A stretch of 64,000 bases of DNA from Terrabacter sp. Root85 (GTDB taxonomy: Bacteria; Actinomycetota; Actinomycetes; Actinomycetales; Dermatophilaceae). How positions within the stretch are numbered: position 1 is the first letter of the stretch; every line of letters begins with the position of its first letter. Shown piece after piece: positions 35,195-58,574 of this stretch. The stretch spans positions 481,641 through 545,640 of the forward strand of contig NZ_LMIW01000001.1 of NCBI RefSeq assembly GCF_001429185.1, written 5' to 3'. The translations under genes and the position numbers were made by a program. Below the pieces are notes generated by a model. The model was not told the origin of the DNA. It was given only the letters and a program-made list of their open reading frames with translations, and made no database searches.

Positions 35195-35273
35195 CTCGAC
35201 GGTCTCCGCCCCCGACCGCTGAGGCGGGTGCCGGTGCCGCCTGCTCGCCTGCTCGGCCAACGTTGGACAAGGG

Positions 35274-35304
35274 TTGTACATCTTTGCGATCGGACGCTTA
35301 AGGT
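35274..35304 (+). promoter_or_regulatory. Putative promoter of the HEAT-GT4 gene
   Basis: TTGTAC (35274-35279) and TTAAGG/TAAGGT (35298-35304) are separated by 18-19 bases; the start codon follows within 10 bases of the -10. A leaderless or very short-leader transcript is suggested. Confidence 0.4.
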
Positions 35305-35311
35305 CGGAGCC

Positions 35312-38918: not shown

Positions 38919-40230
38919 TCAGCGGGGGCGTGGGCTCCGCCACCGGCCGGCGGCGATCTGCTCGCCCCCGACCCACACGCCGCCGACGTCGGAGGTCGTC
39001 CCCAGCGCGAAGACCTTGGAGAGCGCGTCGTCGGGGGACGATGCGTTGTCGAGGCCCACGGCGAGCGGGTCGCCGGACTCGGGCAGCACCCAGACGGCGT
39101 CGAACTGCTTGCCGACCGAGAGGTCACCCACGTCGTCACCGAGCCCGAGCGCGTCGGCGCCCGCCCCGGTGCTCAGCCAGAGCAGGTGGGCCGAGGTCAG
39201 CAGCATCCCGTCCGGGCCGAGGAGCTGCTGGACGAAGTAGGCCTGCAGTCCCTCCTTGAACAGCGAGAAGCCGGTGCCGGCGCCGACGTCCGAGCCGAGG
39301 GCGACGCGCACCCCGGCCTCGACGTGACGACGGAGCGGGAAGAGCCCGCTGCCGAGCGCCGCGTTGCTCGTGGGGCAGTGCGCCACGGCGGCGCCGCGAC
39401 CGGCGAGCGTGCTCAGCTCGGCATCGGTCGGGTGGACGTCGTGAGCGAGCACCGACCTCGGCGTGACGAGGCCGAAGCGGTCGTAGGTGTCCACGTAGGA
39501 GGCCCCGCCGAAGAGGGCGGCGACCTCGCTGATCTCGTGGAGGTTCTCGTTGAGGTGCGAGGTGAAGAGCGACCCCGGCACCTCGGCGAAGGTGGCGGCA
39601 CAGGCCTCGAGCACCCCCTCGCTCGCCGAGAGGGAGAAGCGTGGTGTGACGGCGTAGCGCAGCCGGCCCTTGCCGTGCCAGCGGGCCGCGAGCTGGCGCG
39701 ACTCGGCGTAGGCGCGCTCGGGGGTCGTGAGCAGCGGCTCGGGCAGCAGCCGGTCCGAGGTCACGAGGCCGGTCGCGACCCGCAGGCCCCAGTGGTCGGC
39801 CGCCTCGAACATCACGTCGACGGCCGGGGCCTGGTGGGCCCCGAAGACGAGTGCGGTCGTCGTCCCGGCGTCGACGAGCCCCGCCACGAAGTCACGGGCC
39901 ACGCCCCGGGCGTGGTCGACGTCGGCGAGCCGCATCTCCTCCGGCAGGGCATAGCGGTCCAGCCAGTCGAGCAGCGGCAGGCCGAGCCCGCCGATGACGC
40001 GCACCTGGGGGAAGTGCACGTGCGTGTCGACGAGCCCCGGCAGGAGCAGACCCTCGCGCAGGTCGAGGACCGGCTCGTCGGGATGCTCCGCGCGCACCAC
40101 GTCGAAGGGGCCCGCGGGCCGTGATGACGCCGTCCCCGACGAGCAGCCCGCAGTCGTCGTCGGACCGGAGCGTGCCTCCGGCGAAGGGGCTCGTCGGCGT
40201 GTCGAGGACGCGCACCCTGAAGATCGTCAC
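38919..40230 (-). pseudogene. Guanine deaminase (GuaD) with apparent one-base frameshift near the N-terminus
   Basis: An amidohydrolase converting guanine to xanthine for the adjacent xanthine dehydrogenase. The 393-residue main frame has the zinc ligands HVH (VDTHVHFPQ), H in TSHLNENLHE, H in LAHDVHP and D in LGSDVGAG. The first roughly 40 residues (TIFRVRVLDTPTSPFAGG, DDDCGLLVGDGVITARGP) are in another frame. The shift falls at a GGGGCCC run (plus strand 40107-40113); removing one base restores the frame. The GTG at 40230 overlaps the xdhC stop, as expected for an intact operon. It may be a sequencing error, a recent mutation, or initiation at an internal start. Confidence 0.8.
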
Positions 40231-41061
40231 GGACGGGTGCCCGGCGTCGGGCGCTCGAGCTGCCGCTCCCGCTCGAAGGCCGCGAGCAGGTCGACCGCGA
40301 CCGCCACGGCGATGGTCGCCGGGCTCTTGCCGGTGAGCCCGGGCGCCCCGATCGGCGTCGTGATCCTGCCCAGGTCCTGCGCCGAATGGCCTTCTGCCGC
40401 AAGGCGTTGCTCGAAGCGGCGCCACTTCACCGACGACCCGATGAGCCCGATCGAGCCCAGGTGCGAGCACCTCAGGGCGGCGTCGCACAGCGCGACGTCC
40501 TCGGCGTGGTCATGGGTCATGACGAGCACGTGAGTGCCGCGCGGGACCTGCCCGAGCACGAGCTCCGGCACGGGCGCGTGGTGGACGTGCACACCGGCCA
40601 CGGCGTCGGCGAGCCCCGCGAGTCGTCCCGCGGCCACGCGGTCGGCCCGGCCGTCGACGAGGTGCAGCTCGAGGTCGTGTCGGCTGAGGATGCGCGCCAG
40701 CTCGGCGCCGACGTGCCCCATCCCGAAGATCGCCACGGAGGGCACGACGGGCAGCGGCTCGAGCAGCAGCGACACCTCGCCCCCGCAGCACTGCTGGCCG
40801 TGCTCGACCGGGGCGCGCTCGTTGAGCGCCAGGTCCAGCTGCTCGGGAGCGACCTCGCCCCGGGCGAGCATCGCGCGCGCCCGCTCGACGGCCGTCGCCT
40901 CGAGGTTGCCACCGCCGATGCTGCCCCACGCGTCGTCGGGCGAGACGACCATCTTGGCGCCGGGCTCGCGCGGGGCGTGGCCGCGGACGGCCGCGACCGT
41001 CACGAGCACGCCGGGGATCCGGTCTGCACGCAGCCGCTGGGCTGCCGAGAGCCAGTGCACG

Positions 41062-41069
<8 letters not shown>
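40227..41069 (-). CDS. xdhC: Xanthine dehydrogenase accessory protein XdhC
   Basis: A 280-residue protein that inserts the sulfurated molybdenum cofactor into xanthine dehydrogenase. GSIGGGNLEATAVERA and HGQQCCGGEVSLLLEPL are XdhC hallmarks (cofactor-binding Cys and Gly). A C-terminal Rossmann domain starts at VAIFGMGHVGAELARIL and continues VMTHDHAEDVALC and IGLIGSSVKWRRF. The GTG overlaps the end of xdhB by eight bases, and the stop overlaps the start of the deaminase gene. Confidence 0.9.
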
Positions 41070-43529
<2,460 letters not shown>

Positions 43530-43533
<4 letters not shown>

Positions 43534-44996
43534 GCGCCCACCCCGTCGGCAGACTGCTCGTCCCCATGGAGGCGAAGGAGTGAGGTCCCGAGCACCGCGA
43601 TGCGGTAGGCCGCGCTGGCCCGGTGGTCGTCGAGCGGGGTGCCCTCCCCCCGCATCACCTCGGCGGCCGCCTGCACCGTCGCCGCGGTCCAGGCCCGGCC
43701 CTCCAGGGCTGCCTCGGTGGCGAGCGCCCTGACGGGGGTGGCCGCCACGCCGCCGAGACCGATGCGCGCCCGCCGGACGGAGCCGTCGACGACATCGAGG
43801 GCCACGGCGACGGCGACGCTGGAGATGTCGTCGTAGCGGCGCTTGGCGACCTTGTGGAAGGCCGTGGTCGGGCTGAGCGGCAGGGGGATCCGCACCGCAC
43901 GGATCAGCTCGTCGGGGCGGCGCACGCTCTGCCGGTAACCGGTCCAGTAGTCGGCGAGCGGCACCTGCCGGTCCCCGTCCGGACTCGCCAGCACCATGAC
44001 GGCCTCGAGCGCGAGCAGGGCGGGCGGCAGGTCACCGATCGGCGAGCCCGTGCCGAGGTTGCCGCCGAGGGTCGCCCCGTTGCGGATGAGCCGGGAGGCG
44101 AACTGAGGGAACACCTGGTCGAGCAGCGGGATCCGCCCGGCCAGCTCGCGCTCGACCTCGGTGAGGGTCAAAGCGGCGCCGATCTCGACGGCCTCGTCAT
44201 CGACCTCGAGGCGGCGCAGCTCGGGCAGACGGTCGATGCCGATGACGAACGGCGCCCTGGTGCCACGGAGGTTGACGTCGACGCCCCAGTCGGTCGAGCC
44301 GGCGACGACCGCCGCGCCCGGATGTGCCGCGAGCAGCTCGAGCGCCTCGTCGAGGTCGGCTGCCCGGGCATAGGTGCCGGTCGCCCCCGAGAGTCGGGTC
44401 CCGACCGGAGGTGGCGGCGCGCTCGAGCGCCGCGAGGCGAGCGCGTCGTCGGCCGCCGGGGAGTCGAGCACGAAGGCTGCGTCCCGGATCGGCCGGTAGC
44501 CGGTGCATCGGCACAGGTTGCCGGAGAGCGCCCCGAGCCGGAAGCCGTTGGGCCCCGACTCGTGCGCGTCCGCGTCGCTGCCCACACGGGCCGCGTCGTC
44601 CTGCCGGTCGGCCCGGTAGTACTCGGCAGCCATGGAGCAGACGAAACCGGGCGTGCAGTAGCCGCACTGCGACCCGCCTCGCACCGCCATCTCGTGCTGC
44701 ACGGGGTGCAGGTGCTGGGGCGTCCCCAGTCCCTCGGCGGTGACGACCTCCTGGCCGTCCAACGAGGCGGCCGGCAGGAGGCAGGCGTTGACGGCCGTCC
44801 ACTCGGTGCCCGACCCACCGTCGGGGCGGGCCACGAGCACCGCGCAGGCGCCACACTCCCCCTCGGCGCACCCCTCCTTGGCCCCGGTGAGCCCCTGCCC
44901 CCGCAGCCAGTCGAGGGCATTGGTCGCGGGGTCGGTGCCCGCCAGACCGCGCTCGGTGCCATTGACCGTCACCGAGAGGCGCTGCCCCGGCGTCAT
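43530..44996 (-). CDS. xdhA: Xanthine dehydrogenase small subunit XdhA (2Fe-2S and FAD domains)
   Basis: A 488-residue electron-transfer subunit. The first 2Fe-2S cluster is CAEGECGACAVLV plus CLLPA, and the second is QCGYCTPGFV plus LCRCTGYRPIRDA. The FAD domain is recognised by VVAGSTDWGVDVN and RNGATLGGNLGTGSPIGDLPPALLAL. The ATG giving MTPGQRLSVTVNG was chosen because the ferredoxin fold begins right there; the ribosome site is weak, and a TTG further upstream is unlikely. First gene of the purine operon, 54 bases after ribA on the same strand. Confidence 0.92.
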
Positions 44997-45050
44997 CCGA
45001 AAGTCCCGTCGTCCACGGACCCATGATGCACCGCCGGGTGCTGCGGTCAA

Positions 45051-45737
45051 TCAGGGCTGGACGTTCAGGTCGAGGGTGTGCGCGCCACGCACGACCTTCG
45101 TCGCGAGGTAGTGGGCGTTCGCGTCAGACAGGTGGACGCCGGTCGGGACGCGACGGGCCACGGTGACCCCGAGCGCCCGCAGCTGATCCACCTTGTCGGG
45201 GTTGTTGCTGAGCAGCTCGACGCGGCTCACGCCCAGCGCACCGAGCATCTGCGCCGCGACGGTGTAGTCCCGCTCGTCCTCGCCGTAGCCGAGCGCGACG
45301 TTCGCCTCGTAGGTGTCGAGGCCCGCGTCCTGGAGCACGTATGCGTCGAGCTTCGGGTAGAGCCCGATGCCGCGGCCCTCCTGCCGCAGGTAGAGCAGGA
45401 ACCCGCCGCTCGCGTCGAGGCGCTCGACCGACTCGCGCAGCTGGGCGCCGCAGTCGCACCGCCCGCTGCCGAAGACGTCACCGGTCAGGCACTCGCTGTG
45501 CAGCCGGGTCGGCGTCGGGTCACGGTCGCAGGCCCCTGGACCGGGGGCGTCCGCACGGTCCCCGAGACCCAGCGCGACGTGCTCGCGCCCGTCGGCGAGA
45601 CCGTCGAAGGTGAAGACCCGCGCCGTCGTCGCGAAACCGTCGGCGAAGGTGACCGGTACGAGCACGTGGGTGCGGATGCGGGCCGGTGGGGGTCCCGGAG
45701 CAGCCGCCGGTGCGCGACTCGGCGCCCCGGGGATCAC
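45051..45737 (-). CDS. ribA: GTP cyclohydrolase II (RibA domain only)
   Basis: A 228-residue single-domain enzyme that opens GTP to 2,5-diamino-6-ribosylamino-pyrimidinone 5'-phosphate. The zinc ligands are in SECLTGDVFGSGRCDCGAQL (C-x10-C-x-C), LYLRQEGRGIGLYPK holds the GTP-binding Arg/Gly and catalytic residues, and VELLSNNPDKVDQL completes the signature. No ribB, ribE or ribH is nearby, so it is probably not the housekeeping riboflavin gene. It overlaps the RibD-like reductase gene by four bases and thus belongs to the glycolipid/pterin cluster upstream. Confidence 0.9.
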   Translation of the reverse strand: MIPGAPSRAPAAAPGPPPARIRTHVLVPVTFADGFATTARVFTFDGLADGREHVALGLGDRADAPGPGACDRDPTPTRLHSECLTGDVFGSGRCDCGAQLRESVERLDASGGFLLYLRQEGRGIGLYPKLDAYVLQDAGLDTYEANVALGYGEDERDYTVAAQMLGALGVSRVELLSNNPDKVDQLRALGVTVARRVPTGVHLSDANAHYLATKVVRGAHTLDLNVQP

Positions 45738-46429
45738 GCGCTCTCCCGGAAACGCGGCGACAACGCATACCTCAGCAGGACCACGTCGCCGATCTGGCGC
45801 ACCTCGGCGAGCGTCGCCCGACGGCCGGCGTTCCAGGGGTAGCGCCCGTCACCGACGAACCGGCACGCCGCCGAGTCCCCGACGAAGAAGGGCGCCACGA
45901 CGAGCTGGAGCTCGTCGGCGAGGTCGTCGGTGAGCAGCTGCGTGTGCACGGTGCCGCCGCCCTCGACCATGAGCCGCCGCACCCCCCGGTCGCCGAGGTC
46001 CTCGCAGACGCGGCGCATCGTCGCGGGACGACCGGCATCGACGACGGCCGCAGCCGCACCGAGCCGTCCGCGCGCCTCGGGCACGACGTCGCTGGGGCAG
46101 TAGACGATCTTGTCCGCACCGTCGGCCGCGAAGAAGCTTGCGGCGCAGTCGAGCTCGGCCCGTCTCGTGACCGTCACCTTCGTCGGCGACGGGGTGAGAC
46201 CGCGGGCCACCCGTGCAGCCCGCCGCTCGGGCGAGCGGACGAGCAGGCGCGGGTTGTCGTGACGGATCGTGCTGGCACCGACGAGGATCGCGTCGCTCGC
46301 GGCTCGCTCTCCGTCGACACGGTCGAAGTCGGCGTCGTTGGACAGCATGAGCCGGGCCGAGGTGCCGGCACTGAGATAGCCGTCGATCGACATGCCACAG
46401 CTGAGCAGGGTGTAGGGGCGGTCAGCCAC
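45734..46429 (-). CDS. RibD C-terminal-domain (pyrimidine reductase-like) protein
   Basis: A 231-residue reductase with the DHFR-like RibD_C fold and no deaminase domain: YTLLSCGMSIDGYLSAG, LSNDADFDRVDGERAASDAILVGASTIRHDNP (segments), RRLMVEGGGTVHTQLL and VVAPFFVG. This is the fold that reduces the ribose of the RibA product to a ribitol chain, so RibA and this protein could act in sequence. GAAGGAG precedes the GTG. It overlaps both neighbours by a few bases. Confidence 0.87.
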   Translation of the reverse strand: MADRPYTLLSCGMSIDGYLSAGTSARLMLSNDADFDRVDGERAASDAILVGASTIRHDNPRLLVRSPERRAARVARGLTPSPTKVTVTRRAELDCAASFFAADGADKIVYCPSDVVPEARGRLGAAAAVVDAGRPATMRRVCEDLGDRGVRRLMVEGGGTVHTQLLTDDLADELQLVVAPFFVGDSAACRFVGDGRYPWNAGRRATLAEVRQIGDVVLLRYALSPRFRESA

Positions 46430-47405
46430 GGACGGCTCCTTCCGGTGGGAGCGCGGTCGGGGTGCGGGGGCCTCCGCGCCGTGACACGACGAGCAGCGCC
46501 GCACCCGGCAGGGCAGCGACGAACGACATCACGCCGTAGACGACGGCGGTCGCCACTCCCCCGGCGACGCCGAGCCCGGCCACGCCGAACACCCAGGCCG
46601 CCACCCCTTCACGCGGTCCCCAGCCGGCGACGTTGAGCGGCAGCGCCATCGCCACGAGGACGACGAGCGCGAGCGGCACGAGGTCGGCCACGGGCGCCTC
46701 CACCCCGGCACTGCGGGCGGCCAGCACGAAGGTCGCGACGTGCCCGACGACGACGAGCGCCGAGACCACGACGACGCCCGGCCACGTATGCCGTCCCAGG
46801 AGTCCGTGACGCACGTCGGCGACCGCGACCCGAAGGACCCGCGAGACCTGCGCGAGGGGCCCGGGTGGCACGGCCGGGGTGCGACCCGAGCGACGCCGCC
46901 GGGTCGCCACGACGCCGACCAGAGCGGCGGTCCCGGCGACGAGAACCATGGTGGCCACGGGGGATCCGCCCGGCTGCAGGCGCGACGGCAGCAGCAGCAC
47001 GGCGCCCAGCGTCAGCCCGAGGAGGACGGCCTGACCGGCCGAGCGCTCCCACACGACCGACCGCACGCCGCGGCTGACGTCGCCGCCGTCACGCCCGTGT
47101 CGGACGCCTCGGTGCACGTCGCCGAGCACACCCCCGGGCAGGGTCACGTTGAGGAACTGCGACCGGTAGCACGCGGCGACCGCCGAGCGCAGGGACAGCT
47201 CGGACCCGAGGCCCCGGGCCACGAGGACCCACCGCCACGCGCCGCAGACGGTCGTGACCACGGCGATGGCGGCCGCCGCCGCGACCGAACGGGCGTCGAC
47301 GTGGCGCAGTCCGTCGACGAAGGCGCCACCACCGATGCGCCACACGAGGACGCCGAGGATCACGAGCCCCGCGAGGGGGCGCAGCCAGGACCGGTCGCGC
47401 TGCAT
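46422..47405 (-). CDS. Lysylphosphatidylglycerol-synthase-TM/flippase-like membrane protein (UPF0104 type)
   Basis: A 327-residue polytopic protein with about seven to eight transmembrane segments. WRWVLVARGLGSELSLRSAVAACYRSQFLNVTLPGG and GDVHRGVRHGRD (segments) fit the LPG_synthase_TM family, whose members lack a catalytic domain and are thought to flip or transport lipids. The ATG immediately follows GGAGGAG, so spacing is unusually short and a start further upstream is possible. It overlaps the RibD-like gene by eight bases. Confidence 0.78.
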   Translation of the reverse strand: MQRDRSWLRPLAGLVILGVLVWRIGGGAFVDGLRHVDARSVAAAAAIAVVTTVCGAWRWVLVARGLGSELSLRSAVAACYRSQFLNVTLPGGVLGDVHRGVRHGRDGGDVSRGVRSVVWERSAGQAVLLGLTLGAVLLLPSRLQPGGSPVATMVLVAGTAALVGVVATRRRRSGRTPAVPPGPLAQVSRVLRVAVADVRHGLLGRHTWPGVVVVSALVVVGHVATFVLAARSAGVEAPVADLVPLALVVLVAMALPLNVAGWGPREGVAAWVFGVAGLGVAGGVATAVVYGVMSFVAALPGAALLVVSRRGGPRTPTALPPEGAVRG

Positions 47406-47488
47406 CTCCTCCGCCCTTTCTGCCCAGGATCTGCCGAGTATCCGCCCGGGACCCCTGATGGTGACGACGTCCGGCTCCACGATCGGGT

Positions 47489-48550
47489 TCAGCGACCCCC
47501 TACCCGCTCGAGCACGGCCGACACGTGTCCTGCGGTCTCCGACCACGATGACAGGGTGTCGCGTCGCGCCAGGGCATTCCGGCGCAGCCGTTCCCGCAGG
47601 GCCCCGTCGGTGAGCCACGACCGGAGCGCAACCGCCAGCGCCTCGGGGCTGCCTGCAGGGACGAGCAGCCCGGGCCGCCCGTCACCCGCCTGCCCGACCG
47701 CCTCGCGGACGCCACCGACGTCGGTCGCGAGCACCGGGACGCCGCGCGCGAGTGCCTCGGTCACGACCATCCCGTACGTCTCGAGGTGGGAGGGCAGGAC
47801 GAGGAGGTCGGCGGTGGCATACGTCAGCTCGAGGTCCGCGCCGACGCGCGGTCCCACGAGGTGCACGCGGTCGCCGAGGCCCGCCGACGCGACCCGCCGA
47901 CGCAGCCCGTCGACGACGTCCGGCTCGCGCGTGAGGGCGCCGACGAGGACGCACGACCACGGGAGGTCGTCCACGAGCGCGAGCGCCGCGAGGAGGTCGG
48001 CCTGCCCCTTGAGCGCGGTCACCGCGCCGACGCAGATCAGGCGCCCGCCGTCGGGACCGCCGGCCGCCACGCGCGCCCGGTCGACCCCGGGCCGGGCGAC
48101 GCGCACGGCCGCGGGAGCGAGGGCGTACGCGTCGAGCAGGACGTCCCGGGTCCACCCGCTCGTCGTCACGACGGCCGCGGCCGCGGTCAGCACCCGGCCC
48201 TCAGCCGCGGCCGCGCTCGGGTCAGAAACCCCCAGCGGCAGGTGGACGACGACGACGAGATGGACGCGGTCCGCCGCGGGCACGAGGACGGCGTCCGCGG
48301 CCGACGCGACGAGGCCGTCGACGAGCAGCACCGACCCCGTGGGGACGGCCGCGACGACATCGGCCAGGCAGGCCGTCGCTGCCGAGTCCGGGTGTGGCCA
48401 CCGCCCGGGCACGTGGTGCTCGCTCGCCTGCCACCCGAGGGCACGCAGGCCGTCGAGCACCCTGCGGTCGTAGGTGTTCCCCCCGCTCGGGAGCAGGGGG
48501 TCGTCGATCCCGGCCGGGACGACGGCGTGGAACTCCCTCAGAGCTCGCAC
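47489..48550 (-). CDS. GT4-family glycosyltransferase
   Basis: A 353-residue GT-B enzyme. [20 protein letters not shown] and [34 protein letters not shown] give the donor-binding site with the E-x7-E motif (segments quoted). The N-terminus [23 protein letters not shown] is the usual acceptor-side beginning. A membrane-associated lipid or peptide glycosyl transfer is likely given the neighbouring CDP-alcohol phosphatidyltransferase and flippase-like genes. The GTG lies inside the end of the pterin-synthase-like gene. Confidence 0.85.
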
Positions 48551-48936
48551 TCGTAGCTCGCCCAGGCGACGTGTGACTCGTGGAGGGTCACGGCGAGCGC
48601 GGTGACCCGGTCGGTGGCGCCGCCGAGGTCACCGGCGCGTATGCGACCCGCGACCCGCTCCGCGATGGTGCGGGCCAGCACCTCGGTCGAGGTGTTGACC
48701 CCCGCGAAGTCCGGCTCGTCGTCGAGGTTGCGGTAGCCGAAGGCACCGACGACCTCGCGGACGTGCTGGGTCGCGAGACCGATGTCGACGAGGATGTCGT
48801 CGTCGTCGAGCTCGGGACCGCGGAAGGTCACGTCGACGACGAACGTCGCCCCGTGCAACCGCTGCGCCGGACCGAACACCTCCCCCCGGAAGCTGTGCGC
48901 GATCATCATGTGGTCCCGGACGGTCACGCTGAACAT
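48538..48936 (-). CDS. 6-pyruvoyl-tetrahydropterin synthase / 6-carboxytetrahydropterin synthase-like protein
   Basis: A 132-residue T-fold protein (PTPS/QueD family). [66 protein letters not shown] (segments) and a C-terminal [12 protein letters not shown] match the family. Zinc is normally held by three His; the AHS and LHG histidines are present, but the third (HGH) is Ala in LHGAT. Either another residue completes the site or the enzyme differs. GGGGAG precedes the ATG. The gene follows the MDR gene after 11 bases. Confidence 0.82.
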
Positions 48937-48947
48937 CGGCTCCCCGC

Positions 48948-49940
48948 TCAGTGGGTGGGTCGGTAGGAGATCGTGTGGCAGATGGCCGGCAGGGAGCCGT
49001 CCGCGAGGCGCGGCATCAGCGCGGGCAGCTCCTCGAAGGGCGAGTCGCCGGTCAGCAGGGCGTCGAAGGCCGGGTCGCGCAGGAGGTCGAGCGCGAGCGC
49101 CAGCCGCTCGGCATACGTGTATCTCGAGCGCCTCGCTGCCGCAACGGAACCCACCTGACTGGCTCGGATCCGCAGCCGCGACGAGTGGAACGCTCCGCCG
49201 AGCGACAGCTCGACCCGCGCGTCGCCGTACCAGCTGAGGTCGAGCACCGTCGCCTCCGGTGCGAGGAGGTCGAGCGAGAGCTGGAGCCCGGCACCCGTGG
49301 CGCTCGTGTGGACGACGAGGTCGTGGCCCCCGCGCACGTCGACGAGGTCGGCCGGCCGCGCGAAGCCGACCCCGAGCGACCCCGCCACCGCCTCCCGCGA
49401 CGGGTCCACGTCGACGAGGGTCACCCGGCACCCGGGGACCCCGGCGAGCAGGCGCGCGACGCAGCACCCGACCATCCCCGCACCGACGACGGCGACGCGG
49501 TCACCGAGCCGCGGAGCGGCGTCCCACAGCGCGTTGACGGCGGTCTCGACGGTGCCGGCGAGCACGGCCCGCCGAGCGGGCACGTCGTCGGGGACGACGA
49601 CGACCGCCCCGACGGGGACGACGTAGGACGTCTGGTGCGGGTGCAGGCAGAAGACCGTCCTCCCGACGAGACCCGTCGGGCCCTCCTCGACGACGCCGAC
49701 ACCGAGGTAGCCGTACTTCACGGGACCGGGGAAGTCCCCCTCCTGGTGCGGGGCGCGCATGACGGCGTACTGGTCCTCGGGGACTTTCCCACGGAAGACG
49801 ATCGTCTCGGTGCCGCGGCTCACGCCCGAGTGCAGCGCCCGCACGAGCACCTCGCCCGACCCGGGAGCGGGCACGGTGACCGGCCGGATCTCGCCCCTGC
49901 CGGGCTCGACCACCCAGAAAGCCCGCGCATCGGTGGACAC
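48948..49940 (-). CDS. Zinc-less MDR dehydrogenase/reductase
   Basis: A 330-residue MDR. The N-terminus ([18 protein letters not shown]) lacks the catalytic-zinc Cys and His, and there is no structural-zinc loop; [11 protein letters not shown] and [19 protein letters not shown] are retained. This sub-type, seen in BchC-like and other reductases, acts on ring or side-chain carbonyls. Here it probably modifies a pathway intermediate. First gene of the minus-strand half of the cluster, with a GTG start and a divergent promoter toward the phosphatidyltransferase. Confidence 0.8.
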
Positions 49941-50023
49941 GCGACCAGACTAGGGCTGTCCGTGAACTCCGGCGGTGACGACGGCGTCCTTGGATGAAAC
50001 CTCTCAAGCCCGGTGGAGGCGCA

Positions 50024-50827
50024 GTGCGTCACGTGACCCCTCACGGCCCGGTCGTCGGGCTCGTCGGCGTGCTGACCCTGCTCGCCGTCCTGGGCCGGGC
50101 GACCGACCTCGGCGCAGCCGGCTGGATCGTCGGCCTGGCCTCGGGGGTGGTGCTCTGCGCCCTGCTCACGGCCGGGCTCGTCCGGGCCTCGCGCCGGCGC
50201 CTCCTGCCCGCCGACCGTGTCACCCTGTCGAGGGCGGTGCTCGTGTGCGGCGTCGCGGCCCTCGTCGCCGACAGCGTGGCGGGGACCGTGGCGGGGACCG
50301 GGGGCACCGACGAGCCGACCGGCGTCCTCGTGGCCCTCGCCTCGGTGGCACTCGTCCTCGATGCGGTGGACGGCCGGGTCGCGCGCCGCACCGGGACCGT
50401 CCACCCGCTCGGCGCGCGCTTCGACATGGAGACCGACGCCTTCCTCATCCTCGTCCTCAGCGTGGCCGTCACCCGTGACCTCGGGTGGTGGGTGCTCGGC
50501 GTCGGGGTCGCCCGCTACCTCCTGCTGCTCGTCGCGCTCGCGGCCCGATGGGCGCCGTGGCTGCGCGGACAGGTCCCGGCACGTCTGTGGCGCAAGGTGA
50601 TCGCGGCCTACCAGGGCATCGTCCTCACGGTGGCCGCCGCCGGCATCCTGCCCGCTGTGGCCGCAGCGGTCGCCGTGGCAGCCGGGCTCGGGCTGCTCGT
50701 CCTCTCGTTCGGCACCGAGGTCCTCACGCTGCGGCGGATGTCGGTGTCCCGACGCCACGAGGTCGAGGTCCTCGCTCCGCGGCCGGTCGTCGGGCAGATG
50801 GCCGTCGACGCGCGCGTGCTGCCGTGA
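50024..50827 (+). CDS. CDP-alcohol phosphatidyltransferase
   Basis: About 267 residues, integral membrane. The signature D-G-x2-A-R-x8-G-x3-D-x3-D is present as DAVDGRVARRTGTVHPLGARFDMETD (quoted in segments: DAVDGRVAR and GARFDMETD), holding the two metal ions for phosphoalcohol transfer. It would make a phospholipid such as a phosphatidyl-polyol, or transfer a CDP-activated alcohol. The GTG after GGTGGAGG was preferred; an ATG at 49994 without a ribosome site would add ten residues. The stop overlaps the sulfatase start (GTGA). Confidence 0.85.
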   Translation: MRHVTPHGPVVGLVGVLTLLAVLGRATDLGAAGWIVGLASGVVLCALLTAGLVRASRRRLLPADRVTLSRAVLVCGVAALVADSVAGTVAGTGGTDEPTGVLVALASVALVLDAVDGRVARRTGTVHPLGARFDMETDAFLILVLSVAVTRDLGWWVLGVGVARYLLLLVALAARWAPWLRGQVPARLWRKVIAAYQGIVLTVAAAGILPAVAAAVAVAAGLGLLVLSFGTEVLTLRRMSVSRRHEVEVLAPRPVVGQMAVDARVLP

Positions 50828-52494
50828 CGTCGCCACCCCGGGCCCGGACCGGCCGCCGCGTCGCCGGCCACGTCCTCACCACCCTCGCCGTCCTGCTCGT
50901 CTGGGTCGCGCTCGTCGCGCCGAACCCGGCGGTCGGCTGGTCGCCGACACCGCTGGCGCTGCTCCGGATCCCCGTCGAGGGCCTGGTCCTCGTGGCCGGG
51001 CTCCTGCTCCTGCGCGGCGTGGCCGCGCGGTCCTTCACGATCGCGGTCGGGCTGGGCCTCGGGGTCCTCCTCGTCGTCCGGGTCCTCGACGCGGCCTTCC
51101 TCGCGACGCTCTACCGGACGTTCAACCCGCTCACCGACTGGCGCTACGCCGGGTCGGCCACCGACCTCCTCGGCGACTCGACGGGTCCGGTGACGGCGGT
51201 GGTGGCCGTCGTCGCGGCGGGGCTGCTCCTGCTCGGCATCGTCGTGCTGACGCCCCTGGCCGTGCGACGGGTCGGGCGGGTCGTCGATCGCCACCAGACC
51301 GGCGCGACGCGCGCCCTCGTGGCCGGGGCGGTCGCCTGGGGCGTCTGCGCCTCGCTCGGGCTCGGCGTCACGGCAGACCTGCCCGCCGCGTCGTCGAGCA
51401 CGGCGGCCCTCGCCGGCCGCGAGTTCACGTCGGTGCGCGACGGCCTCCACGACCAGGACGTCTTCGCCGCGCAGATCACCGTCGACCCGTACCGCGACAC
51501 CGCGCCGGGCGGTCTGCTGACCGCGTTGCGCGGCAAGGACGTCGTCGTCGTCTTCGTCGAGAGCTACGGCAAGGTCGCCGTCGACGAGAGCCCCGACGTG
51601 GCAAGGGCGCTCACGGCCGGGACGAACGGGCTGAAGGCCTCCGGCTACACGACGCGCAGCGCGTGGCTCACGTCCCCCACCTTCGGCGGGATCAGCTGGC
51701 TCGCCCACTCCACCCTCCAGTCCGGACTCTGGGTGAGCAGTCAGCGGCGCTACGACCAGCTCCTCGACACCGCGACGTCGGCCGACCGCCGCCTCACCCT
51801 CGCCGGTGCCTTCGCCCGCGCCGGGTGGCGCACCGTCGACGTCATCCCGGCCAACCGTCACGACTGGCCCGAGGGCAAGGCCTTCTACGGCTACGACACC
51901 GTCTACGACGCACGCACCCTGGGCTATGCCGGGCCCGGTTTCGGCTACGCACCGATGCCCGACCAGTACACGCTGTCAGCCTTCGACCGGCTCGAGCTGC
52001 AGCGCCGCCCACCCGGTCGACGGCCGCCGGTCATGGCCGAGATCGACCTCGTGACGAGCCACGTCCCCTGGGCGCCGCTGCCGCGGCTGCTCGACTGGGC
52101 GGCGATCGGCGACGGCTCCCCCTACCTCGCCCAGGCGGGGCTCGCGACGCCACGCGACGTGGTGTGGAGCAGTCCCGAGAGGGTGCGGGCGGCATACGGC
52201 CAGACGGTCGCGTACTCCCTCGACAGCGTCGTGTCGTTCCTGCGCGCGACCCACGACGACGACCTCGTCGTCCTCGTGCTCGGCGACCACCAGCCGGTCA
52301 GCATCGTCTCGGGCGACCACGCCGGGCACGACGTGCCCGTCAGCATCGTCGCCCGCGACCCGGCCGTGCTCGCGCGCATCTCCTCGTGGGGCTGGCAGGA
52401 CGGGCTGCGACCCGGACCCGCCGCCCCGGTCTGGCCGATGGACCGCTTCCGCGACCGCTTCCTCGCCGCCTACGGGCCGACCGCCGGCGGCTGA
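50824..52494 (+). CDS. Membrane-anchored sulfatase-family protein (LtaS / phosphoethanolamine-transferase-like)
   Basis: A 556-residue protein with four to five N-terminal transmembrane helices followed by an extracytoplasmic alkaline-phosphatase-like domain. KDVVVVFVESYGK is the start of the domain (metal-binding Glu), SPTFGGISWLAHSTLQSGLW the region of the nucleophile, and VLVLGDHQPV the C-terminal metal site. Such enzymes add phosphoglycerol or phosphoethanolamine to envelope lipids or glycans. Coupling to the phosphatidyltransferase suggests that enzyme supplies its lipid donor. It ends the plus-strand half of the cluster. Confidence 0.82.
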   Translation: MTSPPRARTGRRVAGHVLTTLAVLLVWVALVAPNPAVGWSPTPLALLRIPVEGLVLVAGLLLLRGVAARSFTIAVGLGLGVLLVVRVLDAAFLATLYRTFNPLTDWRYAGSATDLLGDSTGPVTAVVAVVAAGLLLLGIVVLTPLAVRRVGRVVDRHQTGATRALVAGAVAWGVCASLGLGVTADLPAASSSTAALAGREFTSVRDGLHDQDVFAAQITVDPYRDTAPGGLLTALRGKDVVVVFVESYGKVAVDESPDVARALTAGTNGLKASGYTTRSAWLTSPTFGGISWLAHSTLQSGLWVSSQRRYDQLLDTATSADRRLTLAGAFARAGWRTVDVIPANRHDWPEGKAFYGYDTVYDARTLGYAGPGFGYAPMPDQYTLSAFDRLELQRRPPGRRPPVMAEIDLVTSHVPWAPLPRLLDWAAIGDGSPYLAQAGLATPRDVVWSSPERVRAAYGQTVAYSLDSVVSFLRATHDDDLVVLVLGDHQPVSIVSGDHAGHDVPVSIVARDPAVLARISSWGWQDGLRPGPAAPVWPMDRFRDRFLAAYGPTAGG

Positions 52495-52590: not shown

Positions 52591-52980
52591 ATGAGACTCC
52601 GAGGCGTGGGAGCGGTGGCGTTGCTCGTCTCCGCCGGCGTGCACCTCTACCTGTGGTTCGACGGGGTGCGCAACCAGAGCGTGGGGCCGATGTTCCTCAT
52701 CAACGTCGTGGCCGGCGTCGTCATCGCGATCCTGCTGCTCCGCTGGGAGCACTGGGTCCCGGCGTTCCTGACCGCCGGTTTCGGAGCCGCCACGCTCGGG
52801 GCGTTCATCATCGCGTCCACCGTCGGACTGCTCGGCGTGCACACCGTGTGGGCGGGCGGCTCGGTCTGGACGGCCGCGATCGCCGAGGTGGTCTGCATCG
52901 TCGTCGGCGGCCTCCTGCTGCTGCGCGGGCGGTCGATGGCGCCCCAGCTGGCGCAACCCGCCAAACGGCACGCCGCCTGA
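52591..52980 (+). CDS. Small integral membrane protein, four transmembrane helices
   Basis: A 129-residue hydrophobic protein with four predicted helices and a short basic tail (QPAKRHAA). GVHLYLWFDGVRNQSVGPMF is a pattern I have seen in uncharacterised actinobacterial membrane proteins, but I assign no function. AGGAGCG precedes the ATG. It lies in the same direction after the sulfatase gene with a 96-base gap. Confidence 0.75.
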   Translation: MRLRGVGAVALLVSAGVHLYLWFDGVRNQSVGPMFLINVVAGVVIAILLLRWEHWVPAFLTAGFGAATLGAFIIASTVGLLGVHTVWAGGSVWTAAIAEVVCIVVGGLLLLRGRSMAPQLAQPAKRHAA

Positions 52981-53074
52981 GCCTCACCCGCATCGGGGGA
53001 TGCGGGGGCCCCGACGCCACGGGAGGCTCGGAGGACAGGTCGGAGGCCTGTCCCCGTGACACCCGGAGGTCGAG

Positions 53075-54268
53075 ATGCCCGCACGACTGCGCTCGGTGCT
53101 GGCAGCCGTGCTCCTCGTCATCGGCGTCGTGCTCGTGCCGGTCGGGGCGACCGCGACGTGGCTGCGCACGACGGTGACCGACACGGACACGTATGTCGCG
53201 ACGATCACCCCGCTCGCCACCGACCCGGCCGTCACGTCCTTCGTCGAGGACCGCGCCACCGCACGCGTCGTGGCTGCGATCAGCGACCAGCACCTCGTCG
53301 ACCGTGCGCTCGCCGCGCTGGAGAACCGCGGGCTCCCCGCCGCAGCCACCCGAGCGCTCGGACTGCTCGCGGCACCGCTCGCGGCCCAGGTCGAGCAGGT
53401 CGTGCGCCGGGTCGTCACCGCGGTCGTCGAGAGCGACCAGTTCGCCACTGCCTGGGTCGCGGCGAACCGGGTCGCGCACGCCCAGCTCGTCGCCGTGCTG
53501 TCACGGTCGCCCGACGGCGCCATCGTCGACAACGGGTCGACCGTGAGCATCGACATCGGCAACCTCGTCGAGCCCGTCGAGCAGCGCCTCGTCGCCGCAG
53601 GGGTCCCGCTCGTCGACAAGCTGCCGCCGATCACCGTGTCGGTGCCCCTGCTCCCCAGCAGCGACCTCGACACCGCACGCACCGCCTACAACGCCCTGCG
53701 CATCGGCGGCGTGGCCCTGCCGCTGCTGGCTCTCGCGTTCATCGCCGGAGGGGTCGCCATGGCGCGCGACCGCCGGCGAGCACTGGTACGCGTGGGGCTC
53801 GGTGCCGCTGTGGCCTGCGTCGTGCTCGTGCTGGGGCTGTCGTTCGCCCGGTCGCACGTGGCGAGCAGCCTGCCGCCTGGCGCCTCCGCCGCCGCGGTCT
53901 CCGTCATCGACACGGTCACCGAGGGCCTGCGCCAGCTCGTGCGCGTCGTCGTCGTGGTCGCTCTCGCCGTGGTGCTCGTCGCCCTCGTCGTCGGCCCGTC
54001 GCGCGGGGCCCGCCGGGTGCGGTCCCTGGCCGTCACCGGGTGGAACGGTGCCCGCGGCGGGATGGACCGCGCCGCCGGCACGCCGCTCGCGATCCCGGTC
54101 GCCGTCGGGGTCGCCGTCGTCTGCGTGCTCGTCGTCGTCTTCGCCGGCGACCTCGGAACGGGCTGGACGATCGTGCTCGCCGCCGTGGCCGCGCTCGCGC
54201 TCGTCGTCGCCCTGCTCGCCGGTCGGGCCCCCGCGCCCGAGGTCAGAGAGCCGGCAGCAGGAGCGTGA
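53075..54268 (+). CDS. Uncharacterised actinobacterial integral membrane protein
   Basis: A 397-residue protein. An N-terminal helix is followed by a long extracytoplasmic region (about residues 30-205, TDTDTYVATITPLATDPAV at its start), then four helices in the C-terminal half. The N-terminal phrase and layout occur in many actinobacterial hypothetical membrane proteins. CGGAGG lies five bases before the ATG. Its last 26 bases overlap, tail to tail, the 3' end of the histidine-kinase gene on the other strand. Confidence 0.78.
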   Translation: MPARLRSVLAAVLLVIGVVLVPVGATATWLRTTVTDTDTYVATITPLATDPAVTSFVEDRATARVVAAISDQHLVDRALAALENRGLPAAATRALGLLAAPLAAQVEQVVRRVVTAVVESDQFATAWVAANRVAHAQLVAVLSRSPDGAIVDNGSTVSIDIGNLVEPVEQRLVAAGVPLVDKLPPITVSVPLLPSSDLDTARTAYNALRIGGVALPLLALAFIAGGVAMARDRRRALVRVGLGAAVACVVLVLGLSFARSHVASSLPPGASAAAVSVIDTVTEGLRQLVRVVVVVALAVVLVALVVGPSRGARRVRSLAVTGWNGARGGMDRAAGTPLAIPVAVGVAVVCVLVVVFAGDLGTGWTIVLAAVAALALVVALLAGRAPAPEVREPAAGA

Positions 54269-56075
54269 TGCTCGTCCCCCGGCCGAGCTCGGACTCGACG
54301 TCGATGCGCCCGCCGTGCCTCGTCACCACGCGCTGCGCGATGCTGAGGCCGAGACCCGTGCCCGGCACCTGGAGGGTCTCCGGGTTCGTGCCGCGGAAGA
54401 ACTCAGTGAAGAGGCTCTCCTGGTCCTCGGGTGAGATGCCGAGTCCGTCGTCGATGCACTCGAGCACGACCCGGTCGCGTCGGCTCGCGACGGAGACCGC
54501 CACCTTCCCGCCGGCCGGGGTGAACTTCACCGCGTTGCTCACGAGGTTCTGCACGACCCGCTCGAGGTCGCCAGCACTGCCCCGGACGAGCGGCAGCCGC
54601 TCCTCGAGGTCGAAGGTCAGACTGACCTGCTGGGTGTCCGCGCGCGGACGGAACATGTCGACGACGTCACGTGACACCTCGCCGAGGTCGACGTCGGCCT
54701 CGGGCATGGGCCGGTCGGGGTCGCTGACCCGCGACAGCGTCAGCAGGTCGTCGACGAGGCTCTGCAGCCGCTCGGTGTTGCGCTCGATGACCCCGAGCGA
54801 CCAGTCGCCGTTGCCGTCCGGCTCCTGCCGGAGCAGCTCGACGTGCCCGACGATCGAGGCGAGGGGGTTCTTCAGCTCGTGCGACACGGTCGAGAAGAGC
54901 TGCGTCTTGCTGCGGTCGGCCTCACGCAGCTCGGCCGCGACCCGCCGCTCGACGGCATACAGCCGGGCGTTCCGGATGGCCCGCCCGAGGTCACGGCCCA
55001 TCTCGAGCGCGGCCTGCGCCTCGGCGTCGGTCCAGTCGGGGTCACCGGGCCCGCGCGTGCAGGCGATGTAGCCGAAGCAGCTCGACCCCGAACCCATCGG
55101 CGCGATGAGCAGCGAGCGCGCGGCGGCGTCGGACAGGAAGACGCGCACCTGCGCGATGTCGTCGTTGCTCCAGAGGCGCGCCGGCTCGACGTGGCCGTCG
55201 GCGCCGACGACCGCGACGACACCGGCACGCCAGCAGCGGGCGGCCATCCGACGGGCGATCGCGACGAGCGAGACGGGCGTGTGCACGCGCTCGCCGCTGC
55301 GCGCCGAGACGCTCTCACGCTCGTCGTCGTCCTCGCCCGCGAAGGCCCGCAGCCACAGGCCCGCCGACGCGAGGCCGGCCGAGATCGGCATCGCCGCGAC
55401 GTCGACGACCCGGGCGGGGTCGAGGTCCTCCTGCGCGATGCGCGCCACCGTCTGCACGGCCTCACCGAGACGGACCCGCTCGGACAGGGCGTGGCGCTGG
55501 CGGGCGGCCGAGATGGCGATGCCGGTCTGGTTGGCGAAGAGCTCGAGCACGGCCCGTTGCGTCACGTCGGGGCGACGCCCGCTGAGCGGCAGGTCGACCG
55601 AGAGGATGCCGAGCAGCTCCCCGACGGCGTCGAAGAACGGTGCGATGAGGGTGTCCTCGGGGTTCCACGCATCGGGGTCACCGGCAGGGGTCGGCGCGGT
55701 CCAGTCGGCCGACACCCAGCCCTCGGCCGACCCGTCGGGCAGCTCGCCGGCGGGGACGAAGCGCAGGCTCCCCCACCTCTCGGCCACGGCGAACTCGGCC
55801 TCGAGGACCGGACGCGGCGTCCGCCTGCCGAGCAGCTCGACGCGCGCGTCGTCGTCGCCGGCCACGGCCACGACCTCGATGTCGCCCGAGGGCACGACGA
55901 GACTGATCGCCGCCACCTTGAAGCCGACCACGTCGGCGGCGCCGTCGACGACCATGTCGAAGAGGATCGACAGGTCGTCCTGTGCGCTGACCCGGTTCAT
56001 CAGCTCAGTGAGCCGACTGAGCGCCAGCACCTCCCACACCACGCCGTCGCGCACCCTGTCCCCTGTCTGCGTCAT
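54243..56075 (-). CDS. Cytoplasmic sensor histidine kinase with two GAF domains
   Basis: A 610-residue soluble kinase. Two GAF-like regions occupy about residues 20-190 and 205-375. The HisKA dimerisation helix carries the phospho-acceptor His in STVSHELKNPLASIVGHVE, and the HATPase domain has N-box NLVSNAVKFTPAGG, DDGLGISPEDQ and GTGLGLSIAQRVVTRHGG. There is no transmembrane segment, so it senses an internal signal. AGGGGT precedes the ATG. No response regulator is in the window; another kinase gene lies 24 bases upstream on the same strand. Confidence 0.9.
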   Translation of the reverse strand: MTQTGDRVRDGVVWEVLALSRLTELMNRVSAQDDLSILFDMVVDGAADVVGFKVAAISLVVPSGDIEVVAVAGDDDARVELLGRRTPRPVLEAEFAVAERWGSLRFVPAGELPDGSAEGWVSADWTAPTPAGDPDAWNPEDTLIAPFFDAVGELLGILSVDLPLSGRRPDVTQRAVLELFANQTGIAISAARQRHALSERVRLGEAVQTVARIAQEDLDPARVVDVAAMPISAGLASAGLWLRAFAGEDDDERESVSARSGERVHTPVSLVAIARRMAARCWRAGVVAVVGADGHVEPARLWSNDDIAQVRVFLSDAAARSLLIAPMGSGSSCFGYIACTRGPGDPDWTDAEAQAALEMGRDLGRAIRNARLYAVERRVAAELREADRSKTQLFSTVSHELKNPLASIVGHVELLRQEPDGNGDWSLGVIERNTERLQSLVDDLLTLSRVSDPDRPMPEADVDLGEVSRDVVDMFRPRADTQQVSLTFDLEERLPLVRGSAGDLERVVQNLVSNAVKFTPAGGKVAVSVASRRDRVVLECIDDGLGISPEDQESLFTEFFRGTNPETLQVPGTGLGLSIAQRVVTRHGGRIDVESELGRGTSITLLLPAL

Positions 56076-56099
56076 ACCCCTGGATCGTGGCCGCCGCCA

Positions 56100-58574
<2,475 letters not shown>

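Follow-up and report, generated by a model that had tools for sequence, protein, structure and literature searches.

A recurrent actinobacterial gene neighborhood in Terrabacter sp. Root85 combines GTP ring-opening enzymes and a PTPS-IV protein with glycosyltransferase and membrane-side genes

Subfamily PTPS-IV of COG0720 is recognized by its FGPAQ signature, and its published gene neighborhood (cluster-node 62) lists PF00925 and PF01872 (PMC5445326). That account labels PF00925 as GTP cyclohydrolase I/FolE2, whereas Pfam's PF00925 is GTP cyclohydrolase II. Here we describe a variant of this known set, made up of eight genes at positions 45051-52494 of a 64,000-nucleotide stretch of the Terrabacter sp. 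Root85 genome (contig NZ_LMIW01000001.1, positions 481,641 to 545,640), which we refer to as the window. The PTPS-like protein of the locus carries FGPAQ, as do the proteins of 122 of the 125 distinct loci compared, and its sole sequence match in the PDB is 3d7j (SCO6650; 130 residues, E 6e-58). Genes for RibA (PF00925) and a RibD_C-type reductase (PF01872) stand beside it, so that both the signature and the RibA/RibD neighborhood are held in common with PTPS-IV and SCO6650, which have already been published.

Other described systems resemble single parts of the locus. In archaea, GTP cyclohydrolase III opens the ring and the creatininase-family protein ArfB deformylates the ring-opened intermediate; BrbF, of the same family, does so in rhizobia and Brucella, so that ring opening and deformylation are likewise split between two enzymes (PMC9478397). 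Pteridine glycosyltransferases, which put a sugar on biopterin-type pteridines, exist in cyanobacteria and Chlorobium (PMC5683033); the glycosyltransferase found here may act in a comparable way. The portions covered here of the published PTPS-IV account make no mention of a medium-chain dehydrogenase/reductase (MDR), GT4 glycosyltransferase, phosphatidyltransferase, LtaS-like or creatininase-family partner (PMC5445326). A sequence-only reading of the window had known of no assigned product for such a gene set. No product was found in the searched literature either, which did not extend to the majority of subscription papers, those on SCO6650 and SCO6655 among them, nor were the MDR, GT4, phosphatidyltransferase and LtaS-like partners or the module swap described below; the neighborhood itself, as PTPS-IV with PF00925 and PF01872, was in part already in print. 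The words Streptomyces, Actinobacteria and lipid do not occur in the main text of a 2026 review of pterin signaling.

We see about an even chance that the eight genes work together as a single functional cassette. Judging from the enzyme families encoded, it would convert GTP into a ribityl-pyrimidine or pterin without deaminating it, glycosylate this compound and couple it to the membrane. All eight gene calls were upheld by Pfam profiles and, for the MDR and the LtaS-like protein, by structure models:

45051..45737, minus strand: RibA (GTP cyclohydrolase II, cassette copy), start at 45737 or 45665; PF00925, E 3e-52
45734..46429, minus strand: RibD_C-type reductase without a deaminase domain; PF01872, E 3.4e-34
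46422..47405, minus strand: LPG_synthase_TM, flippase-like membrane protein; PF03706, E 9.8e-31
47489..48550, minus strand: GT4 glycosyltransferase; PF00534, E 3.4e-31
48538..48936, minus strand: PTPS-like T-fold protein, subfamily PTPS-IV (FGPAQ); PF01242, E 1.2e-22
48948..49940, minus strand: MDR with no recognizable zinc ligands; weak ADH_zinc_N match, fold match
49994..50827, plus strand: CDP-alcohol phosphatidyltransferase; PF01066 (CDP-OH_P_transf), E 2.4e-11
50824..52494, plus strand: LtaS-like membrane enzyme of the alkaline-phosphatase superfamily; predicted-structure match

On the minus strand, transcription runs from the MDR through the PTPS-like protein, GT4, LPG_synthase_TM and RibD_C to RibA, and the pair of CDP-alcohol phosphatidyltransferase and LtaS-like genes is divergent from this six-gene run. 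Starts were revised to 46429 for RibD, 47405 for LPG_synthase_TM, 48936 for PTPS and 50824 for the LtaS-like gene; for RibA, the gene finder favors 45665, and an overlap of 4 nucleotides with RibD needs 45737. Further overlaps amount to 8 nucleotides (RibD/LPG_synthase_TM), 13 nucleotides (GT4/PTPS) and 4 nucleotides (CDP-alcohol transferase/LtaS-like), and the PTPS-MDR gap is 11 nucleotides. Within the Root85 genome (4.87 Mb, 15 contigs, 100% complete), the PTPS-like gene is 96% identical to the copy of Terracoccus sp. 273MFTsu3.1 and 92% identical to that of Terrabacter sp. Root181.

Recurrence of the gene set in actinobacteria

The sequences establish what the genes encode, how far they are conserved and found together, the module swap, the fused frames and which active-site residues are retained or lost. 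Of the 18 relatives searched, 12 have the PTPS-like gene, among them 9 of 9 genus members. All eight components occur in 7 of 7 same-genus neighborhoods (19-kb stretches), and one further genus member (G002), outside the seven counted, has the PTPS gene. A class-wide sample covered 394 genomes from 138 genera, with presence defined as E <= 1e-12 for the PTPS-like protein and E <= 1e-50 for the MDR. The two were found in an identical set of 57 genomes spanning 26 genera, among them many Streptomyces and Micromonospora. Neighborhoods of about 20 kb were available for 42 of these 57 genomes, giving 43 loci (one genome contributes two, and some loci are limited by contig ends); the remaining 15 comprise Root85 itself and 14 genomes represented only by short loci, nearly all of family f28. 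The 125 distinct loci include the best 80 of more than 580 named loci, minus 5 duplicates.

Beyond the genus, MDR, PTPS and GT4 are co-located in all 43 loci. The CDP-alcohol transferase and LPG_synthase_TM follow with 36 loci each, a methyltransferase (family F5) with 33, RibA with 31, RibD of either type with 20, and the LtaS-like and creatininase-family genes with 18 each; the thresholds for these components were set by us, and the component models were derived from the same loci, so that their own members match by construction. Gene order and strand differ between families, and in two loci the MDR lies apart from PTPS, by 2.3 kb (L066) and by 7.6 kb (L067). In 12 regions picked arbitrarily from genomes with the cassette, every component stayed below its threshold, the closest matches being two other GT4s with scores of 100 and just under 150 (threshold 150). 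Chance adjacency is ruled out by the genus loci, the 57-genome co-occurrence, the 43 loci and the 12-region control. The impression that similar sets recur in actinobacteria, voiced in the sequence-only reading, was thereby borne out, and the random adjacency that it had named as refuting its idea was excluded by the neighborhood comparison.

The F5 family, a family of S-adenosylmethionine methyltransferases (L074:11013-11834), lies between GT4 and LPG_synthase_TM in many cassettes.

Parts of the set, apparently an older core, also occur beyond the class. In a different family of the phylum, three loci (L196-L198) carry RibD_C, MDR, PTPS and GT4 in the same order; all MDR matches there, and the RibD matches of two loci, fall under the thresholds, and the members of L198 were confirmed by Pfam. 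Their PTPS proteins contain FGPA and have lost the Cys while keeping the zinc His, and no match to the component models of the membrane genes was obtained in these three loci. In L197, a gene for FolB (dihydroneopterin aldolase; L197:6036-6416) lies beside RibD-MDR-PTPS-GT4, with a methyltransferase and an acyltransferase nearby. A short contig from yet another family (L195) holds RibA, RibD, LPG_synthase_TM, GT4 and PTPS. Near the PTPS genes of L199-L202, no cassette gene was found at threshold except a riboflavin-type RibA about 6 kb away in L200; L199-L201 carry an ordinary Cys-type PTPS.

Enzymes of the cassette and the exchanged ring-opening module

The cassette RibA has the family profile, zinc cysteines and key Tyr of a GTP cyclohydrolase II. 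It scores 247.6 bits against NF001591 (cut-off 148), keeps C83, C94 and C96 (HSEC...CDC), and has a Tyr at the position of Tyr105 of E. coli (KLDAYVLQ). It is the second copy in the Root85 genome, the other being a RibBA on contig C12. As this RibBA and a deaminase-reductase RibD form a housekeeping set on another contig, the cassette copies of RibA and RibD are extra. Among NCBIfam models, the RibD_C protein scores highest against TIGR01508, for the archaeal diaminopyrimidinone reductase, with 120.9 bits (under the cut-off of 186.45), and its PDB neighbors include archaeal and yeast-type reductases. A Pfam scan detected no deaminase among the cassette proteins.

Comparison of the 107 distinct loci with RibA revealed two cassette types. 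Tyr occupies the key position in 43 loci, of which 41 carry a RibD_C gene of the window type, 2 a RibA-RibD fusion and none a creatininase-family gene. In the other 64 loci, the Tyr is replaced by Met in 49, His in 7, Leu in 6, and Gln and Cys in 1 each; 63 of the 64 carry a creatininase-family gene, none the window-type RibD_C and 15 a second RibD type. Root85 has no match to the creatininase family (PF02633) anywhere in its genome. The Streptomyces cassettes carry Met at this position, as does SCO6655, the GTP cyclohydrolase II of Streptomyces coelicolor, which according to Spoonamore et al. 2006 reportedly has Met for the usual Tyr and stops at the formylated product. The Root85 enzyme differs in that it keeps the Tyr, and as predicted from this residue it should directly yield the deformylated product. 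Since Tyr-type RibA and the creatininase-family gene exclude each other, and creatininase-family proteins act as deformylases elsewhere, the two cassette types look like two routes to one deformylated diaminopyrimidine. The module swap points to the intermediate that both versions would share. Unlike the ArfB and BrbF systems, in which the enzyme pair serves riboflavin synthesis, the cassette pair adjoins PTPS-IV, MDR and GT4. L019 and L069 each encode, near MDR-PTPS-GT4, a single protein (435 and 452 residues) in which RibA and a RibD-like reductase domain are fused.

The PTPS-like protein appears to have departed from catalysis of the usual kind. Compared with three ordinary relatives from the same phylum (those in L199-L201, with C..LHGH and DH motifs), it shows Ala at the place of Cys, Gly-Tyr at that of Asp-His and Ala at that of the last (second-place) zinc His, while His14, His28 and Glu120 are invariant in the PTPS-like alignment. 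We take these positions to be the catalytic Cys, Asp and His, the zinc His residues and, for Glu120, the pterin anchor. With the catalytic Cys, Asp and His and one zinc His replaced, a catalytic PTPS such as QueD or a biopterin synthase is excluded. SCO6650 is likewise said to be without zinc and the catalytic triad, with the pterin-binding pocket retained.

The Pfam matches of the MDR are weak (including ADH_zinc_N) and all lie under the curated cut-offs. Its predicted model resembles zinc-type alcohol dehydrogenases (4cpd, E 1.5e-19), and Cys is absent from the invariant columns of 25 aligned rows. An alcohol-dehydrogenase fold with no invariant Cys makes a zinc-independent oxidation or reduction likely, as far as the model and alignment indicate. 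The GT4 protein contains the motif ETYGMVVTE (E-x7-E), with E257 kept in 100% and E265 in 98% of 112 aligned rows, and its closest PDB sequences include MshA-type enzymes. These enzymes act on inositol phosphate, a polyol phosphate. Pteridine glycosyltransferases are, as noted above, found in other bacteria (PMC5683033).

On the membrane side, the CDP-alcohol transferase motif D-x2-DG-x2-AR-x8-G-x3-D-x3-D (D123, D126, G127, A130, R131, G140, D144 and D148) is present in 100% of 87 aligned rows. The LtaS-like protein has no Pfam match and no PDB sequence match up to E 1. Its AlphaFold2 model (pLDDT 79.9) is most similar in Foldseek to LtaP/LtaS (E 8.4e-10, TM-score by query 0.38), with GacH and MCR/EptA among the further matches. 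In 19 aligned rows, E246 and H413 are invariant and T286, D488 and H489 nearly so; judging by position, we presume that these five correspond to the LtaS active-site residues. LtaS itself polymerizes glycerol phosphate that it draws from phosphatidylglycerol. The predicted fold and active-site pattern thus appear to be shared with LtaS/GacH/EptA-type phosphotransferases, with the difference that the cassette version often lies in one frame with a CDP-alcohol phosphatidyltransferase. This arrangement was found in 13 of the 125 loci, all with the transferase motif and at least one LtaS-like motif, and one of them (L053) was read through. The one-frame loci and the 4-nucleotide overlap tie the two enzymes firmly to each other; to the cassette, they are tied by position. 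The fused lipid-synthase/LtaS-like proteins point toward the membrane. A second methyltransferase family (MT10; L050:7136-7918, in PTPS-oriented offsets) occurs near the fused gene, in 10 of the 43 loci beyond the genus.

Proposed pathway and competing explanations

In the scheme that we propose, the dedicated RibA would open GTP to 2,5-diamino-6-ribosylamino-pyrimidinone 5'-phosphate, and RibD_C, acting without deamination, would reduce its ribosyl chain to a ribityl chain and so leave the 2-amino-4-oxo (pterin-type) face in place. If RibD_C acts as the TIGR01508 reductases do, the 2-amino group is kept, which would suit a pterin-binding T-fold through Glu120. PTPS-IV, which appears to have lost its metal and acid-base machinery and kept the pterin-anchoring Glu, would bind the ribityl compound or a pteridine derived from it, and the MDR, together with PTPS-IV, would carry out an NAD(P)-dependent, zinc-less oxidation or reduction of the side chain. 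GT4 would add a sugar, and the flippase-like protein, the CDP-alcohol phosphatidyltransferase and the LtaS-like enzyme would serve in membrane coupling or export of the product. A GTP-derived pyrimidine or pterin, as suggested in the sequence-only reading, is still the natural interpretation because RibA, RibD_C and the T-fold are kept, a deaminase is missing and the Glu is invariant; the actual product, the reactions past ring opening, their order, the sugar and the lipid linkage are what we infer from these enzymes. The lipid or glycan linkage put forward in the sequence-only reading may hold: the CDP-alcohol transferase and LPG_synthase_TM are each present in 36 of the 43 loci beyond the genus, but the LtaS-like gene in only 18, and L196-L198 gave no match to the membrane-gene models.

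A more specific and, in our estimate, improbable form of this scheme would be a membrane lipid with a ribityl-pyrimidine or ribityl-pterin head group. Enzymes related to the CDP-alcohol transferase use glycerol- or inositol-phosphate as acceptor; here the ribityl 5'-phosphate would take that place, GT4 would glycosylate the lipid, the flippase-like protein would present it outside, and the LtaS-like domain, often part of one polypeptide with the lipid synthase, would transfer the phospho-ribityl head group onto a glycan at the surface. Such a pterin phosphoglycolipid would, if it exists, be redox- or light-active. In any form, a pathway retained in 57 of 394 class genomes would make a compound without a name found in the searched literature, and the module swap and fused proteins make the long-open function of PTPS-IV and SCO6650 testable in Streptomyces.

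Several observations weigh against the eight genes acting as one cassette with two equivalent ring-opening modules. RibA, RibD and the creatininase-family gene are all missing within the stretch in 8 of the 43 loci beyond the genus. Four of these are short stretches (4-12 kb) and four are full (L018, L066, L073 and L079); the membrane genes are missing as well in L018, and the other three keep the methyltransferase, the CDP-alcohol transferase and LPG_synthase_TM. The essential core may therefore be MDR, PTPS and GT4 alone. The LtaS-like gene occurs in under half of the loci, and the F5 methyltransferase has no match in the Root85 genome at E <= 1e-5, searched with a single-member query (L074). 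In the RibA tree, which has several long branches and in which the placement of fused and housekeeping RibAs is unsure, the non-Tyr forms make up a single branch. The tree needs one change and does not support repeated independent loss of the Tyr, which suggests a single swap rather than repeated coupling. The cassette creatininase-family protein reaches 133.9 bits with the MftE model but only 36.6 bits with that of ArfB, both under cut-off, so that tying it to ArfB by score failed. Finally, the counts rest on models trained on the counted loci.

A serious but clearly less probable alternative to the single cassette would be two neighboring units, in which a soluble core of MDR, PTPS-IV and GT4, supplied by RibA and RibD, makes a glycosylated pterin or pyrimidine for use within the cell or for secretion, next to a separate membrane-lipid unit of the CDP-alcohol transferase and LtaS-like enzyme. 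The universal presence of MDR, PTPS and GT4 in the 43 loci, against 18 for the LtaS-like gene, fits this division, as does the core without a match to either membrane enzyme in L018, L068 and L070 (the latter two being short stretches) and in L196-L198. However, the CDP-alcohol transferase is found in 36 of the 43 loci, across many families and in varied order and orientation, and random adjacency would not retain it. It is quite unlikely that the cassette makes a glycolipid or glycan of the envelope without relation to pterins, with RibA, RibD and PTPS recruited to sugar chemistry: four of the eight products do resemble glycan or lipid enzymes and PTPS-IV has lost its catalytic residues, but the zinc cysteines and the key Tyr of RibA are intact, the Glu that anchors pterins does not vary, and both swapped modules are GTP-ring-opening enzymes.

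We consider it very unlikely that the product is a modified pterin cofactor for the cassette MDR or for the adjoining xanthine dehydrogenase (XDH). The MDR and PTPS-IV co-occur perfectly, and XDH genes come after RibA in the window; yet the MDR keeps an ordinary nucleotide-binding fold in its predicted model, and a cofactor role would leave the GT4, phosphatidyltransferase and LtaS-like genes unexplained. The suggestion of the sequence-only reading that the MDR needs such a cofactor was not supported and keeps a low probability. XDH was rejected as a cassette partner, as only 4 of the 7 same-genus loci include it within the stretch and it forms no recurrent family beyond the genus. We give the least credence to a role in the synthesis of the deazaflavin cofactor F420, with RibA and RibD supplying the ribityl precursor. 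A review states, on unpublished grounds, that PTPS-IV is involved in F420 synthesis (PMC5041015), and CofG is matched with E better than 1e-130 in 45 of the 57 cassette genomes. However, the Root85 genome, complete as it is, has no CofG match, so that a dedicated F420 role does not fit there, and, Root85 included, 12 of the 57 cassette genomes have no CofG match (8) or a weak one (4), 8 of these 12 being 99-100% complete. Most CofG bearers, conversely, are without the cassette, as CofG matches (E <= 0.001) occur in 292 of the 394 class genomes. F420 synthesis also requires a deaminated ribityl uracil, whereas the cassette has no deaminase.

Flanking genes

The LtaS-like gene is followed by two genes without Pfam matches (52591-54268) that are retained in the genus; the first encodes a membrane-like protein of 129 residues, relatives of which lie near the cassette in L058, L060 and L065. 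Further on (54243-58574), two sensor histidine kinases are encoded, of which one has MASE1 and PAS domains; they stand beside the cassette in most genus neighborhoods. On the RibA side, purine-catabolism genes adjoin the cassette (38919-45050), namely an amidohydrolase, a likely XdhC-type open reading frame (40227-41069), XdhB and XdhA. XdhB scores above its cut-off and XdhA below, and the purine genes are found beside RibA in some genus members only. At 35228-37504, a GT4-type domain is fused to HEAT repeats and adjoins a UDPGT-type enzyme and a TrmB-type regulator.

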